Positions 7,075 to 14,656 of a DNA stretch of 64,000 bases are shown piece by piece; the stretch's first letter is position 1, and each line of letters starts with the position of its first letter. Origin of the DNA: Oscillospiraceae bacterium. GTDB taxonomy: Bacteria > Bacillota > Clostridia > Oscillospirales > Oscillospiraceae. The stretch is from positions 62,001 to 126,000 of the forward strand of contig SVMM01000007.1 of assembly GCA_015067435.1 (NCBI GenBank), written 5' to 3'. The notes under the pieces are model-generated. The model had not been told where the DNA came from, made no database searches, and was given only the letters and a program-made list of their open reading frames with translations. The position numbers and the translations under genes are program-made.

Positions 7075-8307
7075 TTACGTCCGGTAATCGCCGTTCATAT
7101 GGACGTATTCGCCGGTGAGGTCGCAGCCCCATGCCGTCGCCTCGCCGCCGCCCTGATGGAAGCTGACGGAGACGGCGACGTCGTGCTCGCTGAGCACCCG
7201 TGTCGCCAGCGCCTCGTCGAAGTCCGTGCCGAAGCCGTCGCGCATGACCTGCACCTCGCCCGCGGCGGAGCGGATGACGCAGTCCGCGTGCGTGGGATCG
7301 ACGTCCGCGCCGGAGTAGCCCGCCGCCGCCATGATGCGCCCCCAGTTGGCGTCGCGGCCGTAGACCGCCGCCTTGAAGAGCGTCGAGCCGGCGATGGAGC
7401 GCGCGACGAGACGCGCATCGCGCTCGGTGGGCAGGCCGCGCGCCTCCACCTCGATCAGATGGGTCGAGCCCTCGCCGTCGGAGGCGATGCGCCGCGCCAT
7501 GTCGACGCAGATCGCCTCGATGAGCGCGGCGAACGCGGCGCGGTCCTCCGCCGATTCCACGGCGACGCCGGACGCGCCGTTGGCGAGCAGGAAGATGGAG
7601 TCGTTCGTGGATGTGTCGCCGTCGACGGTGAGAAGGTGGAAGCTCCTGTCCACCGCGGCGCGCAGCGTCGCGCGCAGAAAGTCCGCGTCGGCGCGCGCGT
7701 CGGTGGTGAGAAAGACCAGCATGGTCGCCATGTTCGGGTGGATCATGCCGCTGCCCTTCGCCATCACGCCCACGCGCACCGTGCCGCCGGAGAGGGGAAG
7801 CTCGTATGCCGCCTCCTTGCGCGTGCGGTCGGTCGTGCAGATCGCCCACGCGGCGTCGGAGCCGTGCTCGGGGGAGAGCGCGGGGACGATGCGGCGCATG
7901 GCGTCCGTCACCTTGTCCACCGGCAGATTCTCGCCGATGACGCCCGTGGAGCAGACGAAGACCTCGTCCTCGCCCAGCTCCAGCAGGCGCTCCGCCTCGG
8001 TTTCCACCGCCTTTGCGTCGCGCAGGCCCCGCTCGCCGGTGCCGGCGTTGGCGTTGCCGCTGTTTATCACGATGGCGCGGACGCCCTTTCCTCTGGAAAG
8101 GATCGCGCGGTCCAGCGTGACGGGCGCGGCGCAGAAGCGGTTGGTTGTGAACATCGCCGCGACGGCGCAGGGGCGCTCGGACACGAGCATCGCGACGTCG
8201 GGCTTATGCTTTTTGCGGCTCTTGACGCCGACGTAGACCGCACCGGCCAGATAACCGCGCGGCGCGGTCACGCCGCCGTCGATGGTCGTATCGATCGGTT
8301 TCTCCAT
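7075..8307 (-). CDS. argJ: Bifunctional ornithine acetyltransferase / N-acetylglutamate synthase
   Basis: Moves the acetyl group from N-acetylornithine to glutamate, releasing ornithine for arginine synthesis. It self-cleaves into two chains at the Ala-Thr bond of the KGSGMIHPNMATML motif, and here the predicted nucleophile is Thr195. The 410 residues are full length. No other acetyl-cycle gene (argB, argC, argD) is near. It lies between argF and arcC, so a biosynthetic enzyme is embedded in a run that otherwise looks catabolic. Whether it is mono- or bifunctional cannot be told from sequence. The ribosome site (AGAGG) is weak. Confidence 0.94.
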   Translation of the reverse strand: MEKPIDTTIDGGVTAPRGYLAGAVYVGVKSRKKHKPDVAMLVSERPCAVAAMFTTNRFCAAPVTLDRAILSRGKGVRAIVINSGNANAGTGERGLRDAKAVETEAERLLELGEDEVFVCSTGVIGENLPVDKVTDAMRRIVPALSPEHGSDAAWAICTTDRTRKEAAYELPLSGGTVRVGVMAKGSGMIHPNMATMLVFLTTDARADADFLRATLRAAVDRSFHLLTVDGDTSTNDSIFLLANGASGVAVESAEDRAAFAALIEAICVDMARRIASDGEGSTHLIEVEARGLPTERDARLVARSIAGSTLFKAAVYGRDANWGRIMAAAGYSGADVDPTHADCVIRSAAGEVQVMRDGFGTDFDEALATRVLSEHDVAVSVSFHQGGGEATAWGCDLTGEYVHMNGDYRT

Positions 8308-8334: not shown

Positions 8335-9330
8335 TTACAGATTGCCGATGGTGGCGACCATAACCGCCTTGATCGTGTGCATGCGGTTCTCCGCCTCGTC
8401 GAACACCTTGCTGTTCGGGGAGAGGAACACGTCGTCCGTGACCTCGCGGATGTCGTAGCCGAGCTTCTTCTGTTCGGACGCCATCGTGGTGTCGAAGTCG
8501 TGGAAGGAGGGCAGGCAGTGCAGGAAGATGCAGTCGTCGTTCTCGGTGGCTTCGAGGACTTCCTTCGTGACCTTGAACGGGGTGAGCAGCTTCACGCGCT
8601 CGGGGATCTTGTCCTCCTCGCCCATGGATGCCCAGATGTCGGTGTAGAGCGCGTCGGCGCCCTTGAGCAGCTTCTTGTCCTTGCCGTACTCGATGACCGC
8701 GCCGGTCTCCTTCGCGACCTCCTTGCAGTAGTCGACGACGTCCTTCGCGGGCGCGAGCTCCTTCGGGCCCCAGCCGACATAGTGCATGCCGAGCTTGGCG
8801 CAGATGTACATCAGGCAGTAGGCGACGTTGTTGCGCGTGTCGCCGCAGAAGACCAGCTTGCACTTGTTCAGCGGCTTCTTGGTGTTCTCCATCAGCGTGA
8901 GGATGTCGGCGAGCGCCTGCGTCGGGTGGTCGACGTCGGTCAGGCCGTTCCACACGGGCACGCCCGCGTTCTTCGCGAGGCCCTCGACGACCGCCTGGTC
9001 GTAGCCGCGGTACTCGATGCCGTCGAAGAAGCGGCCGAGGACCTTCGCGGTGTCCGCCATGGTCTCCTTCTTGCCCATCTGGGAGGACTTGGAGTCGAGG
9101 AAGGTGACGTGCGCGCCCTCGTCGTAAGCGGCGACCTCAAACGCGCAGCGGGTGCGGGTGGAGGTCTTTTCGAACAACAGCACGATGTTTTTGCCCGCGA
9201 GCAGGTTGCCGCGGATGCCGGCGCGCTTCTTCGCCTTGAGATCGGCGGCGAGGTTGAGCATATAGCGGATCTCGTCCGGGGTAAAGTCCTTGAGCGTCAG
9301 GAAGTTGCGGCCTCTCAGATTAACAGCCAT
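8335..9330 (-). CDS. argF: Ornithine carbamoyltransferase (anabolic argF or catabolic arcB)
   Basis: Interconverts ornithine plus carbamoyl phosphate and citrulline plus phosphate. The 331 residues contain the carbamoyl-phosphate loop STRTRCAFE (57-65) and the ornithine/catalytic HCLPSFHD motif near residue 275, both intact. In the ADI direction it would break citrulline to feed ArcC; in the biosynthetic direction it would follow ArgJ. With arcA, argJ and arcC all in the same run, both uses are possible. An AAAGGAGG site precedes the ATG. Confidence 0.95.
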   Translation of the reverse strand: MAVNLRGRNFLTLKDFTPDEIRYMLNLAADLKAKKRAGIRGNLLAGKNIVLLFEKTSTRTRCAFEVAAYDEGAHVTFLDSKSSQMGKKETMADTAKVLGRFFDGIEYRGYDQAVVEGLAKNAGVPVWNGLTDVDHPTQALADILTLMENTKKPLNKCKLVFCGDTRNNVAYCLMYICAKLGMHYVGWGPKELAPAKDVVDYCKEVAKETGAVIEYGKDKKLLKGADALYTDIWASMGEEDKIPERVKLLTPFKVTKEVLEATENDDCIFLHCLPSFHDFDTTMASEQKKLGYDIREVTDDVFLSPNSKVFDEAENRMHTIKAVMVATIGNL

Positions 9331-9383: not shown

Positions 9384-9833
9384 TTATTTGCAGATCTGCT
9401 GGATCTCCAGATACAGGTCCTGCGCGGCGCTTTCGGTCCGCATGATGATGACCACCGTGTCGTCGCCGCAGACGCAGCCGAGCATCAGCGGGTCGATCTT
9501 GGCGTCCAGCGCGGCGCCCGCGGCGCTGGCAAGCCCCGGCATGGTCTTGAGCACAACGAGGTTCTGCGCGTAGTCGCAGCCGGTGCAGCACTCGTGCAGG
9601 ATGCGCTGCAAGCGGTCCGAGGAGTCCAGCTCCGCCTTCGTCTTGCTGACGGCATAGCGGTAGGCGCCGTCGGAGAGCTCCTTGACCAGATGCAGCTGCT
9701 TGATGTCGCGGGAGATGGTGGACTGGGTGCAGCTGAAGCCGTTTTCGCGCAGCTTGGCGATCAGCTCCTCCTGCGTTTCCACCGGGTAGCGTGCGATGAT
9801 GTCCAGAATCATTTCCTGCCGCTTGTTTTTCAT
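9384..9833 (-). CDS. argR: Arginine repressor/activator ArgR (AhrC-type)
   Basis: Hexameric, arginine-responsive DNA-binding protein of 149 residues. The N-terminal winged helix includes the recognition segment STISRDIKQL (about 38-47). The C-terminal oligomerisation/arginine-binding part carries the GCVCGDDT motif, with the paired Asp that contact arginine. It sits between arcA and argF, so it probably senses arginine for its own operon. I could not identify a clean palindromic ARG box by eye in the short gaps around it. Confidence 0.95.
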   Translation of the reverse strand: MKNKRQEMILDIIARYPVETQEELIAKLRENGFSCTQSTISRDIKQLHLVKELSDGAYRYAVSKTKAELDSSDRLQRILHECCTGCDYAQNLVVLKTMPGLASAAGAALDAKIDPLMLGCVCGDDTVVIIMRTESAAQDLYLEIQQICK

Positions 9834-9891: not shown

Positions 9892-11118
9892 TCAGATGTC
9901 GTCGCGGTTGACGGGGCAGGACATGCAGCGCGGGCCGCCGCGGCCGCGGGACAACTCGGCGCTCGGCACGGTGATGACGGTGATGCCGCGCTGGGCGAGC
10001 AGCTCGTTCGTCACATAGTTGCGGTCGTAGGTGATGACCTTGCCCGGAGCGATGGCGAGCGTGTTCGAGCCGTCGTTCCACTGTTCGCGCTGCGCCGCCA
10101 GCAGGTCGCCGCCGCCGCAGCGGATCAGGTCGACCGCGGGGAGCTTGAGCTCCGTGGCGAGGATCTTGTCCAGATCCTCCTTGAGCGCGTTGAACTTCAG
10201 GTCGCCGCCCTTGTCCATCGTCATCTCGTAGACGTTCAGCGGGCCCTCGATCTCCGGATGAATGGTGAACTTGTCGTAGTCGACCATCGTGAACACCGTG
10301 TCGAGGTGCATGAACGCGCGGATCTCGGGAATGTCGAAGGCGAGCACCTTCTTGAAGCCGGAGCCGCCGCCGAGCAGGCTGCGGGCAAACGCCTCCGCGC
10401 CGGAGGTCGTCGTGCGCTGGGAAAGGCCCACCGCCACGATGTCCTTCGAGAGCACCAGCACGTCGCCGCCCTCGATGGAGTAGGCGTCGGTGAGGTCGTA
10501 CCACTGCTTGTCGTCCGGCCCGGCGAAGTCCTTGTCGTGCAGGTACATGTAGCGCAGCAGCAGCGATTCGCGGCGGCGCGCCGGATAGTGCATGTGGTGG
10601 ATGCTCAGGCCGTTGCCGACGCAGGCGCCCGGGTCGCGCGTGAAATAGAGGTTGGGCATCGGGTCGGAGACGAAGGGATAGTCGTCGTTGTCGAGGTCCA
10701 TCAGGGACGTCGGCGCGGTCATGGCGACCTCGCTGCGGCGGATGCCGGCGATCAGCTTCGTGACCATGTCGCGCGGCGACATGCCCAGCAGGTACGAGGT
10801 CATGGACGCGCGCAGCCCGCGGGAGTTGATCTTGCTGAGGTTGAGGAACTCGTTGGCGAGCTGGATCTGCACCTCGGGATTGGAGATGGACTTCGCCACC
10901 TCGTCTACATAGTACAACACTTCGACGCCGTTGTCACGCAGAACCTGCGCGAAGGTGTCATGTTCCTCCTGTGCGATCTTGAGATACGGGATGTCGTCGA
11001 AGAGCAGCCTCTCGATGGTCGAGGGCGTCAGGGCCTCCAGCTCCTCGCCGGGGCGGTGCAGCAGCACCTTGTTCAGTTTGCCGATTTCCGAGTAGTTGTG
11101 GATTCCGGGATGCATCAT
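9892..11118 (-). CDS. arcA: Arginine deiminase
   Basis: Hydrolyses arginine to citrulline and ammonia. The 408 residues end in RCMSCPVNRDDI; Cys398 at the start of that motif is the expected nucleophile. FTRDPGACVGNG and HLDTVFTMVD supply the guanidine-binding Asp and catalytic His of the guanidino-modifying fold. There are two in-frame ATGs (11118 and 11115); AAGGAG lies nine bases before the first. It follows the MocR-like regulator by about 130 G+C-rich bases without a clear sigma-70 promoter, so read-through from that gene is likely. Confidence 0.96.
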   Translation of the reverse strand: MMHPGIHNYSEIGKLNKVLLHRPGEELEALTPSTIERLLFDDIPYLKIAQEEHDTFAQVLRDNGVEVLYYVDEVAKSISNPEVQIQLANEFLNLSKINSRGLRASMTSYLLGMSPRDMVTKLIAGIRRSEVAMTAPTSLMDLDNDDYPFVSDPMPNLYFTRDPGACVGNGLSIHHMHYPARRRESLLLRYMYLHDKDFAGPDDKQWYDLTDAYSIEGGDVLVLSKDIVAVGLSQRTTTSGAEAFARSLLGGGSGFKKVLAFDIPEIRAFMHLDTVFTMVDYDKFTIHPEIEGPLNVYEMTMDKGGDLKFNALKEDLDKILATELKLPAVDLIRCGGGDLLAAQREQWNDGSNTLAIAPGKVITYDRNYVTNELLAQRGITVITVPSAELSRGRGGPRCMSCPVNRDDI

Positions 11119-11137
11119 ATCTTTGCGCTCCTTTCCG

Positions 11138-11149
11138 GACCGCGCGGTC
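11138..11149. repeat. Palindrome in the MocR-arcA gap
   Basis: Perfect 12-base palindrome GACCGCGCGGTC just upstream of the arcA ribosome site. Related CCGCGCGG words occur about 100 bases further up. A regulator site or leader hairpin is possible; nothing more can be said. Confidence 0.4.
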
Positions 11150-11248
11150 TTGCCGCCTGCGGCCCCTACGTGTTTTTACGGTTGTCTCGCTCCGCCTCGG
11201 CGGCGGGCGGCCGGGCGAAAACCGGCGGCGCGGTCCGCGCGGATCGCG

Positions 11249-12733
11249 TCAGCGGTCCCCAAGAAATTCCTCCAGCGTGCTTTTGAAGATATCCAGTCCC
11301 CTGACGAGCCGGTCCTCCGGCTCGCGGGAGTAGTTGATGCGGACATGGGCGCGGCCCTCTTTCTTGCTGGCGTAGAACACGTGCCCGGGGATCAGCGTCA
11401 GCCCGCGGCTGTAGGAGCGGCTGGCAAAGAGCTTGCTGTCCACGCCGTCCGGCAGGCGGCACCAGACGTACACGCCGCCGCGCGGCTTTTCATAGCGCAC
11501 GCCCAGCGGCGCCATGGCGTCCAGCGCCTCGCACACGAGGTCGCGCTTGCGGCGGTAGACGCTGCGGAACTCCGAGAGCTTCGCGTAATAGCTGCCGTTT
11601 TCGAGATACGCGGCGGCGAGCTTCTGGGTGATCCAGTCCGGCGCCGCCATGTTCAGCGAGGCGAGGTAGCTCAGGCTTTCGATGATGGGCTTGCCCGCCG
11701 ACACGAACGCCAGCGACAGCCCCGGCACGAACGTGAGCGAAAACGAGTAGATGTAGATCACGTTGTCCAGCGTGTCCAGCGCCTTGATCGGCGTGACGCC
11801 CGCGCCCTCGTACACCAGCTCCGAGGCGGCGTCCTCCTCGACCACCGGCACGCGAAAGGCGTTGGAGATCTCGATGACGCGCCTGCGCCGCTCGGCGGAG
11901 AGCATGATGCCCGTGGGGTCGTGGAAGCTGGAGTTGAGGAAGATGAAGCGCGGCTTTTTGCGCCGCACCATATCCTCCAGCACGTCGCAGTCGACGCCCT
12001 CGCCGTCCATCGGCACGCGGCACACGCTGCCGCCGGAGAGCGCAACGATGCGCTGCACGTCCGGCGAGACCGGCTCCTCGGTGAGCACCACGTCTCCCGG
12101 CTTAATCAGCAGCAGCACCAGATAGCTCAGCGCCTGATTCGTCTCCTGCAGTACCTGGATCTCGCCCACGGAGGAGCGGATGCCCTTGGTGCTGAGGAAG
12201 GAGACCAGCTTTTGCCGCAGCTCGCGGTCGCCCTTATAGGGGGTGTAGAAGTCGCGGTCGTTCGCCCGGCCGCGCAGCAGCGCGGAGACGTCGCGCGCCA
12301 GCTCGTCGGTGCGGTATACGCCCGGCTGGGAGATGCCGCCGCCCATGGAGCAGCGCACGCCGGCGTCCGAATGCTCAAACAGGTCGTCGAACGACGTGTC
12401 CATGTCCAGATGCCACGACTTGATCTGGTTCGTCCAGTTGACGCGCTTGGCGCCTCCCTCGGCGGACTTCTCGTCCTGCGGCGCCTCGGCGGCGGCCGCG
12501 GCGGCGACCGTGTAGCCCGAGCCCTGCCGCGAGCGGAGCAGGCCGTCCGCTTTCAGCTCGCCGTACGCCTTCGCCACCGTGTTGCGATGCAGGCCCAGCA
12601 TCTGCGCCATGACGCGCTCCGAGGGCAGGACGCTGCCGTCCGGCAATTCGCCGGAGCGGATACGCGAGCGCAGGGAGAGTGCCAGTTGCAGATACACCGG
12701 AATTTTTTTGCCTTTGTCAATCTGGATGTTCAT
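11249..12733 (-). CDS. MocR/GntR-type regulator with degenerate aminotransferase domain
   Basis: 494 residues: an N-terminal GntR winged helix (about 8-75, with LPSERVMAQMLGLHRNTVAKAY), an alanine-rich linker (77-82), then a fold-type I aminotransferase-like domain (about 120-490). In MocR proteins PLP is held by the lysine of an FSK motif; here the aligned segment reads SFSLTFVPG, with Leu333. The usual EDDYDSEF stretch reads EEDAASEL (299-306), losing the Tyr. HDPTG (271-275) and the carboxylate-binding Arg region (HVRINY) remain. It therefore probably binds an amino-acid-like ligand without forming a PLP aldimine, or has lost cofactor use. Start ATG 12733 has a GGAG site. It heads the arginine cluster and faces the YjiH-family gene. 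Confidence 0.88.
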   Translation of the reverse strand: MNIQIDKGKKIPVYLQLALSLRSRIRSGELPDGSVLPSERVMAQMLGLHRNTVAKAYGELKADGLLRSRQGSGYTVAAAAAAEAPQDEKSAEGGAKRVNWTNQIKSWHLDMDTSFDDLFEHSDAGVRCSMGGGISQPGVYRTDELARDVSALLRGRANDRDFYTPYKGDRELRQKLVSFLSTKGIRSSVGEIQVLQETNQALSYLVLLLIKPGDVVLTEEPVSPDVQRIVALSGGSVCRVPMDGEGVDCDVLEDMVRRKKPRFIFLNSSFHDPTGIMLSAERRRRVIEISNAFRVPVVEEDAASELVYEGAGVTPIKALDTLDNVIYIYSFSLTFVPGLSLAFVSAGKPIIESLSYLASLNMAAPDWITQKLAAAYLENGSYYAKLSEFRSVYRRKRDLVCEALDAMAPLGVRYEKPRGGVYVWCRLPDGVDSKLFASRSYSRGLTLIPGHVFYASKKEGRAHVRINYSREPEDRLVRGLDIFKSTLEEFLGDR

Positions 12734-12898
12734 AGATGAAATCTCCGCGGGAGCGCCGAGCCCGCATGCCAAAACCGGCGCGCCCGCCCGGATGTCCGCC
12801 AGGACGCACAAAGAAACCGTCTGACCCTTGTGCAAAATAGCATAAACGGATGTAAGCGGCCGGAGGGAATTTGGCTATAATTGATGATTCCCAATTCT

Positions 12899-12927
12899 TA
12901 TATAATATGCCAATCGCCACTTTGCAA
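12899..12927 (-). promoter_or_regulatory. Promoter of the MocR-like gene
   Basis: Minus strand TTGCAA (plus 12922-12927), 17-base spacer, TATATA (plus 12899-12904). A TTGGCA word lies in the spacer and the inverted repeat CACTT-TGC-AAGTG (12918-12930) covers the -35 box, as expected for autoregulation. The transcript would have a leader of about 155 bases. Confidence 0.6.
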
Positions 12928-12961
12928 GTGCCAGTTTAATCACTCTTTCGTGTGCCAATTT
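12909..12961. repeat. Repeated TGCCA words, candidate MocR-like operators
   Basis: TGCCAAT at 12909, TGCCAGTTT at 12929 and TGCCAATTT at 12953, 20 and 24 bases apart, in direct orientation. An inverse copy ATTGGCA is at 13188-13194. MocR-type regulators usually bind direct repeats, so these are the natural candidates. Confidence 0.5.
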
Positions 12962-13282: not shown

Positions 13283-14656
13283 ATGGAAAACAAGGGCAAA
13301 CTGAAAGCAATGTTCCTCATTCCTTCGCTCATCGGCGTGCTGATCTTCATGATCCCGATGAAGATCGGCGGAAGCTGGACGGTCATCGTCAAGGTTATTG
13401 CCGACTGGCTCAAGAATGATCTGATCGGCTACAACAACGTGGCGATCGTCTGCCTCGTGATTCTGACGGTCTCGGCGCTGCTGGCGCTGGTTGCGCAGGC
13501 AAAGCCCAAGTTCATCATGGACAACAAGATCCTCAAGGACTGCTTCGCCTGCTCCCCGGTGTGGGCGATCGTGCGCGTCATCGGCTGCCTGTGCGTGTGG
13601 ATCACCTATCTCTACGGCGAGGATTTCATGGGCATGGCGTCCAACGCGACGCTCATCCACATGATCGCCGGCGCGGATGAGGGCGAGCTTGCTTATGATC
13701 TGATCATCGGCCTCGTGTTCGTGTTTCTGGTTGCGAGCTTCCTGCTGCCGCTGCTGCTCGACTTCGGTCTTCTGGAGTACGTCGGCGCGCTGCTGACGAA
13801 GTTCATGCGCCCCGTGTTCAAAGTCCCCGGCCGCGCGGCGGTGGACTGCATCACCTCCTGGATCGGCGACGGCACGCTCGGCGTCATGCTGACCTGCAAC
13901 CAGTACGAGGGCGGTTACTATAACGCAAAAGAAGCATCCATCATCGCGACGCTGTTCTCCGCGGTTTCGATCACCTTCTCCCTCGTCGTGCTCGACGAGG
14001 TGGGTCTGACCCATATGTTCGGCGTTTACTATCTGCTGATCTGCTTTGTCGGTATCATCTGCGCCATCCTGTGCTCCCGCATCTGGCCGCTGAGCAAGAA
14101 GCCCGAGACCTATCTCGTCGAGGGCAACGCCATGCCCGATACCCTGCCCGAGGGCTACAAGACCTCCGGCGAGTACGGCATGGATCTCGCTCTCAAGCGC
14201 GTCGCGCAGCACAAGGGCGTCGGCGAGTTCTTCGGCAACGGCCTCAAGAACTGCATGAGCATGTGGTTCGGCGTTCTGCCCACCGTTATGGCGGTCGGTA
14301 CGATCGCGCTGGTCATCGCGGACTACACGCCGGTCTTTGAATGGCTCGGCCTCCCGTTCTACCCGCTGCTCCAGCTCCTCGGCGTGCCCGAGGCGAAGGC
14401 TGCCGCCGGCACGATGGTCGTCGGCTTCACCGATATGTTCACGCCCGCGATCCTGATCGCCGGCTGCGAGGACGCCATGACCCGCTTCATCGTCGCGGTC
14501 ATCTCCATCACGCAGGTGCTGTTCCTCGACGAGGTCGGCGGCCTGATCATCAGCTCCAAGCTGCCGGTCAATCTCGGCGAGCTGTTCGTGATCTTCCTGG
14601 AGCGCACGATCATCTCCATCCTGATCGTCGTCCCCATCGCGCATCTGCTGTTCTGA
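13283..14656 (+). CDS. YjiH-family multispanning membrane protein (nucleoside-recognition Gate domain)
   Basis: 457 residues with about 10-11 hydrophobic segments, ending at the membrane (IISILIVVPIAHLLF). It resembles the YjiH/nucleoside-recognition Gate-domain family, whose substrates are poorly known. Gate-like stretches are seen twice: SWIGDGTLGVMLTCNQYEGG (about 192-211) and GFTDMFTPAILIAGCEDAMT in the second half. The ATG at 13283 follows AAAAAAGGAG by nine bases; a TTG at 13274 is less likely. It faces the arginine cluster across a shared control region, and no arcD is present, so an arginine/ornithine or related amino-acid transport role is a reasonable guess, not shown. Confidence 0.78.
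   Translation: MENKGKLKAMFLIPSLIGVLIFMIPMKIGGSWTVIVKVIADWLKNDLIGYNNVAIVCLVILTVSALLALVAQAKPKFIMDNKILKDCFACSPVWAIVRVIGCLCVWITYLYGEDFMGMASNATLIHMIAGADEGELAYDLIIGLVFVFLVASFLLPLLLDFGLLEYVGALLTKFMRPVFKVPGRAAVDCITSWIGDGTLGVMLTCNQYEGGYYNAKEASIIATLFSAVSITFSLVVLDEVGLTHMFGVYYLLICFVGIICAILCSRIWPLSKKPETYLVEGNAMPDTLPEGYKTSGEYGMDLALKRVAQHKGVGEFFGNGLKNCMSMWFGVLPTVMAVGTIALVIADYTPVFEWLGLPFYPLLQLLGVPEAKAAAGTMVVGFTDMFTPAILIAGCEDAMTRFIVAVISITQVLFLDEVGGLIISSKLPVNLGELFVIFLERTIISILIVVPIAHLLF

Follow-up and report, generated by a model that had tools for sequence, protein, structure and literature searches.

The window, a 64,000-nucleotide stretch of the Oscillospiraceae bacterium contig SVMM01000007.1 (positions 62,001 to 126,000 of the forward strand), contains a set of arginine genes with a MocR-type regulator gene beside arcA (Table 1). 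The divergent neighbor on the other side of the regulator encodes a membrane protein that we take to be YjiH-like. Its NCBIfam matches are weak only, and it is a candidate arginine/ornithine carrier, referred to below as the transporter.

Table 1. Features of the regulator locus, in window coordinates
Feature	Position	Strand	Basis
argJ, bifunctional ornithine acetyltransferase	7075..8307	-	TIGR00120, over cut-off
argF, ornithine carbamoyltransferase	8335..9330	-	TIGR00658, over cut-off
argR/ahrC-type arginine repressor	9384..9833	-	TIGR01529, 125.3 of 130.45 bits; NF001680, 131.4 of 184; both below cut-off
arcA, arginine deiminase, next gene downstream of the regulator	9892..11118	-	TIGR01078, 499.1 bits (cut-off 489.1)
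Lysine-less MocR-type regulator (wHTH and aminotransferase-like domain), 494 aa	11249..12733	-	translation, domain search, clade alignment
Codon of Leu333, at the Schiff-base lysine position	11735..11737	-	codon read; alignments
-10-like hexamer TATAAG, 25 bp downstream of the candidate operator	12897..12902	-	best match in the 12-31 bp range, without a chance control
Candidate operator, direct repeat TTGGCAC...CTGGCAC with 24-bp period, upstream of the regulator	12928..12958	-	upstream reading, pattern searches
Membrane protein with Gate domain, divergent, candidate cluster transporter	13283..14656	+	PF07670; neighbor in 6/6 genus members with the regulator

The regulator frame translates without internal stops and combines a GntR helix-turn-helix (HTH; residues 14-76, PF00392, E 8.1e-15) with a class I/II-like aminotransferase domain (Aminotran_1_2, residues 139-469, PF00155, E 3.8e-28). 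The closest solved relatives of the effector domain are aminotransferases of the LysN/kynurenine type (1x0m, 3aov, 1wst, 2egy), headed by 1x0m at 9.3e-52, ahead of GabR and of 7pq9, presumably a MocR protein. We rejected an identity as PdxR, the regulator of B6 biosynthesis, on a score of 256.8 bits against the model NF052282, under its cut-off of 320, and on the neighbors, which are arginine genes and not pdx genes. An in-frame TTG at 12835 could lengthen the frame; Met stands at the position of the chosen ATG in 10 of the 11 full-length members of the clade described below. A 547-residue open frame lies antisense to the regulator (window 11096-12739, plus strand) and probably reflects GC-rich codon use, not a gene. 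Elsewhere in the same genome (contig C4, L006/L007), a second MocR-like frame has the ordinary FSK lysine; its open frame is only 361 residues, and a TGA is reported inside the match.

A rebuilt cofactor site

The first-pass annotation had claimed that the regulator reads Leu where other MocR proteins have the PLP-binding lysine, and the codon itself and three alignments bear this out: Leu333 pairs with the FSK lysine of 1x0m, 3aov, and 1wst, all of which have a complete PLP site. From 1x0m to the window protein, the phosphate loop changes from SGSQQAL to QETNQAL, EAPTYL becomes EEPVSP, FQNPAG becomes FHDPTG, EDDPYGEL becomes EEDAASEL (residues 299-306), RLNF becomes RINY, and the stretch of the Schiff-base position changes from GTFSKILAPGFRIGW to YSFSLTFVPGLSLAF. 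Read against the canonical residue roles of fold type I, these changes replace the Schiff-base Lys by Leu333, the phosphate Arg by Ser340, the phosphate-loop Gly by Glu197, the stacking Tyr by Ser223, an Asn by Asp272, and the pyridine Asp by Glu300. Ser330, Asp301, and the carboxylate Arg465 are kept, the last within RINYS, in agreement with the earlier claim that the carboxylate Arg region remains. The losses at Arg340, Gly197, and aromatic 223 are stronger than the Tyr change first pointed out.

A conserved lysine-less clade

Aligning the family to see whether the Leu is conserved, as had been suggested, gave a clear answer. Among the loci read, position 333 is Leu in 12/12 clade members, which come from 10 genomes, and Lys in all 102 other homologues, near-copies included in the count (74/74 from the earlier searches and 28/28 from the phylum search); 31 of the 74 have at least 60 residues before the end of the HTH region, and the rest are stand-alone aminotransferases. 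Three further positions separate the same groups: Glu197 in 10/10 clade members compared versus Gly in 102/102 others, Arg340 absent in 10/10 and present in 102/102, and Phe/Tyr at 223 absent in 10/10 and present in 101/102. Glu197-Thr-Asn-Gln-Ala201, His271, Glu299, Asp301, Ser330, Leu333, and Arg465 are invariant across all 12 members (alignment A2). In a maximum-likelihood tree of 77 effector domains, the clade is monophyletic with support of 100/100 and requires one Lys-to-Leu change; its nearest branch consists of lysine-bearing, LysN-like MocR proteins, with 90/80 at the joining fork. The homologue alignment was made without own-genome loci L002-L005, L007, and L008 and eight repeat loci, and the tree without nine of its rows (L006 and eight apparent near-copies). 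One locus, L009 (Oscillospiraceae bacterium SIG464), is apparently on the same contig as L010.

Six members belong to the genus of the window (6/18 genomes), two to genus g23 (L015, L016), and four, within the same class, to family f27 (L072/L124, L126, and L127 in G854; L073/L125 in G1000). Eight lie beside arginine deiminase (ADI) genes and are called ADI-type here; the other four form the M20 subgroup. The clade was sought in whole genomes by 1951 genome scans, repeats included, and the loci read comprise 28 of 40 places outside the genus, 29 new ones from a longer list with two more of G854, and 28 new ones from the phylum list. It is rare: 8/400 genomes match the window protein (P0001) at 1e-60 in the family search, and one of these matches (L017) has Lys. 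These figures describe the sampled genomes at the thresholds used, beyond which lysine-less relatives would escape.

The accessible text of PMC6677901, whose GabR numbering we follow, describes Lys312 and Asp279 as conserved in all MocR clusters and an aromatic residue at 205 as seemingly required. In the clade, the Schiff-base lysine (GabR Lys312) is absent, with Leu in 12/12; the pyridine-nitrogen Asp (Asp279) is Glu300 in the window protein and Glu in 9/12 members, Asp in 3/12; and the PLP-stacking aromatic (Tyr205) is Ser in the window protein and Ser, His, or Val at 223 in 12/12. The phosphate Arg position, 340, holds Ser or Thr in 8/8 ADI-type members and Lys or Gly in the other four. 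Within the cleft, the subgroups differ at 272, which is Asp in the ADI subgroup and retained as Asn in the four M20-subgroup members, and at 329 (Tyr versus Asp, His, or Asn). The first-pass annotation had also counted the EEDAASEL stretch as the loss of a PLP-contacting Tyr. The stretch is as described, and the Tyr-to-Ala change is not diagnostic: the accessible text of PMC6677901 has Tyr281 as seemingly typical of the GabR cluster and often Ala, Val, or Ile in other clusters. Ala302 is unremarkable at this position because the closest relatives of the window protein are not GabR-like and are of the EDDPYGEL type here. Judged from these alignments, what is diagnostic is the loss of the lysine, of the aromatic residue at 205, and of the phosphate Arg.

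Three M20-subgroup members (L015, L016, L127) miss the segment around window-protein position 163. In aminotransferases, this segment presumably bears a Tyr that extends to the PLP phosphate bound by the partner subunit, so that its absence would be a further sign of cofactor loss. The alignment shows no lysine invariant across the 12 effector domains; K317, K371, and K457 are invariant within the eight ADI-type members only, and a relocated Schiff-base lysine is rejected on this sequence evidence. An AlphaFold model (P0001 with L009) reached a mean pLDDT of 51.5 and a pTM of 0.35, too poor to superpose, so the pocket geometry discussed below is taken from the alignment. The proposal that the regulator no longer uses PLP is thus supported by the clade-wide loss of the lysine and several other PLP contacts, and we regard the loss of PLP use as strongly supported at the level of sequence.

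The gene is under purifying selection, with dN/dS of 0.10-0.30 in four clade pairs, one of them near-saturated at synonymous sites, and therefore is not decaying. The 22 cleft positions have a conservation of 0.77 versus 0.60 over 362 effector positions, and random draws reach this value at a frequency of 0.00025; the positions were hand-chosen, some after viewing the alignment, which makes the contrast no more than supportive. One lysine-less paralogue (L126:5565-7007) has a TAG codon between its HTH part and its effector domain. This interruption is what would speak for a decaying gene or a sequencing error, a reading of negligible probability that the orthologues rule out, with frames open in 11/12 members, the same Leu in 12/12, and dN/dS in the range above.

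Genomic context and a candidate operator

In all eight ADI-type members (8 of the 12), the ADI genes are adjacent or one gene away, and this context spans two families, f1 and f27, within the class. The six genus genomes with the gene all have the regulator between the Gate-domain membrane protein and arcA; in one (L052), argF separates the regulator from arcA, and an additional frame stands between transporter and regulator. G854 and G1000 carry the regulator followed by argF, arcA, and a third gene; in G854, this third gene falls in the amino-acid-kinase family (PF00696) and resembles a carbamate kinase gene. The synteny, together with the co-occurring candidate operator described below, supports the initial assignment of the protein as a regulator of the arginine cluster. 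For the clade as a whole, position does not indicate arginine, because the remaining four members occupy other clusters: L015, L016, and L126 have an M20 amidohydrolase and an MFS transporter as neighbors, and the surroundings of L127 include a DcuC-type carrier, an amidohydrolase, and a gene of the arginase family.

arcA itself is present in 11/18 genus genomes. Of these, G003 and G017 encode the transporter along with an arcA of 92 and 89% identity, respectively, and lack the regulator at that locus; a search at 1e-60 found no match elsewhere in these genomes, which are 93 and 85% complete. The regulator is thus an optional layer, dispensable for the pathway. In G017 (L068), the transporter is immediately upstream of arcA in the same direction, and neither this cluster nor that of G003 (L067) has a match to the refined operator pattern described next.

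Reading of the upstream regions yielded a consensus half-site, CTGGYAC, as a direct repeat with a 24-bp period. In the window and L048, the candidate repeat precedes the regulator gene; in L049-L052, L124, and L125, it separates the regulator from the first gene for an ADI enzyme. The transporter may have a second copy upstream of it in L049-L052; at the divergent transporter gene of the window and L048, none was found. With a loose pattern, the proposed sites differ at 0 to 3 positions, and the sites that differ at three (L125, plus the copies at the transporters of L049 and L050) do not exceed chance level. Seven other three-mismatch matches occur in the window and one two-mismatch match inside a frame in the G003 region; the loose pattern yields many chance matches in GC-rich DNA. 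A refined pattern, at up to two mismatches, has a single match in the window and none in 100 shuffles. At up to one mismatch, it matches eight places across the 18 genus genomes, and every one belongs to this cluster: six main sites and two of the four proposed transporter copies. The six genomes concerned are exactly the 6/18 that have the regulator gene, and a reversed-pattern control gave 0. Because the pattern was built from the counted sites, the independent part of this evidence is its absence elsewhere and in G003 and G017.

At 12/12 sites, -10-like hexamers matching 4 to 6 of 6 bases, scored without a chance control, lie 20-25 bp beyond the proximal repeat, which would place the repeat next to or overlapping the -35 region, a usual place for an activator. 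By eye, we noted TGGTAC-N23-TATAAT before the lysine-less genes of both L053 and L054. Another TGGTAY stands 42 bp upstream of it, and an inverted half-site lies between the two; the half-site and its distance to the -10 element equal those in the arginine clusters. A direct-repeat scan of L126 and L127 found no clear repeat.

Discussion

We consider it likely that the gene encodes a PLP-free, ligand-responsive MocR-type regulator, probably an activator, of arginine catabolism. The protein would be a transcription factor from a branch that abandoned PLP, with an aminotransferase-like domain that presumably still dimerizes and retains its binding cleft. The cofactor site in that cleft would have been rebuilt by the exchange of Lys for Leu, the phosphate Arg for Ser/Thr, the phosphate-loop Gly for Glu, and the stacking Phe/Tyr for Ser, His, or Val, with Asn to Asp in addition in the ADI subgroup. 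Most likely, the cleft binds a small amino-acid ligand directly, with the carboxylate on Arg465 and the cationic or polar side chain facing the newly gained acidic residues. An amino acid whose side chain is cationic would fit, because Glu197 (in all members) and Asp272 (in the ADI subgroup) are added and the carboxylate Arg is kept; the position of the gene makes arginine, citrulline, and ornithine natural candidates. Arginine, or one of its products citrulline and ornithine, is the most likely ligand in the ADI subgroup; direct binding of arginine or ornithine, as first surmised, would be in keeping with the acidic residues gained and with the retention of Arg465. Bound to its ligand, the regulator would occupy the CTGGYAC direct repeat next to the -35 region and activate arcA/argF and the flanking transporter gene. 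Against arginine as the signal stands the ArgR encoded in the same cluster, which could be the arginine sensor itself. The broader proposition, that the branch converted the fold of a PLP enzyme into an amino-acid receptor that works without a cofactor and in which the free ligand fills the emptied PLP site and drives activation from the repeat with the 24-bp period, we hold at about even chances; the ligand of such a receptor would be arginine or an ADI product, and in the sister subgroup perhaps something acyl-amino-acid-related.

The main rival to a ligand-responsive regulator is an effector-independent one, whose domain serves as a dimerization scaffold only and which acts as a constitutive activator or repressor. 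E197, T198, N199, H271, E299, D301, S330, L333, and R465 are invariant in the clade, and a bare scaffold is disfavored because it would not need such cleft residues; the divergence of the ADI and M20 subgroups at cleft positions 272 and 329 also speaks against it. We therefore consider it unlikely, even with the precedent of EnuR, whose Lys302His variant, unable to take up PLP, is a constitutive repressor according to the accessible text of PMC8739950.

Continued binding of PLP or PMP without a Schiff base seems very doubtful to us. Lysine-less PLP enzymes of this fold exist that bind the cofactor in this way, Asn272 is kept in the four M20-subgroup members, and a weak, noncovalent interaction would be possible because Asp301, Ser330, and Arg465 are kept and position 300 is Asp in 3/12. 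The cofactor contacts argue otherwise: the phosphate Arg is replaced in both subgroups, the phosphate-loop Gly is Glu in 12/12, and Phe/Tyr occupies the stacking position in 0/12. Another metabolite, such as agmatine, a peptide, or a B6 vitamer, could be sensed instead, with the ADI adjacency reflecting co-regulation with another input. The occurrence of clade members in more than one cluster type and the ArgR encoded in the ADI cluster would agree with this, but the ADI context is kept across families f1 and f27 in 8/8 ADI-type members, and we think it quite improbable. The ligand-responsive, PLP-free regulator remains our preferred reading.

MocR regulators are described as PLP-dependent by definition. 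If our reading is correct, that definition would be broadened by a lysine-less branch that is conserved and has a conserved pathway and a predicted operator, and the clade would be a ready test of whether the fold senses amino acids without cofactor chemistry. Arginine deiminase control would gain a new kind of regulator, and a sensor relying on covalent chemistry would have become, in a natural case, a plain binding sensor. In the accessible text of PMC2018728, all MocR-like regulators are said to have the lysine, and the accessible parts of the open literature (including PMC5320631, PMC4944035, PMC6522883, and PMC5026710) mention neither a lysine-less MocR protein nor a MocR protein controlling arginine deiminase.

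Comparison with known systems

A direct-repeat operator is typical of GabR and PdxR, and a candidate direct repeat lies near the window regulator. With the MocR/GabR subfamily (GabR, PdxR, EnuR), the window protein shares the wHTH, the fold-type-I aminotransferase-like domain with its carboxylate Arg, and a gene adjoining those of an amino-acid pathway. Unlike these regulators, it lacks the Schiff-base Lys, the phosphate Arg, and the stacking Phe/Tyr and has Glu in the phosphate loop; from its sequence, it is predicted not to bind PLP in the usual mode. By the accessible text of PMC8739950, the inducer of an ordinary MocR regulator forms an external aldimine by reaction with the bound PLP. The LysN-like MocR proteins of the class (L074-L085, L017), the nearest branch in the tree at about 30% identity to the window protein, retain the Lys, Arg, Gly, and Asn, and mostly the Asp and Tyr, of the PLP site. 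The LysN/kynurenine-type aminotransferases (1x0m, 3aov, 1wst, 2egy) are enzymes without an HTH, unlike the window protein. ArgR/AhrC, ArcR, and FlpS belong to other protein families, without an aminotransferase domain. Like the window regulator, they are tied to the control of arginine genes in the accessible parts of the literature.
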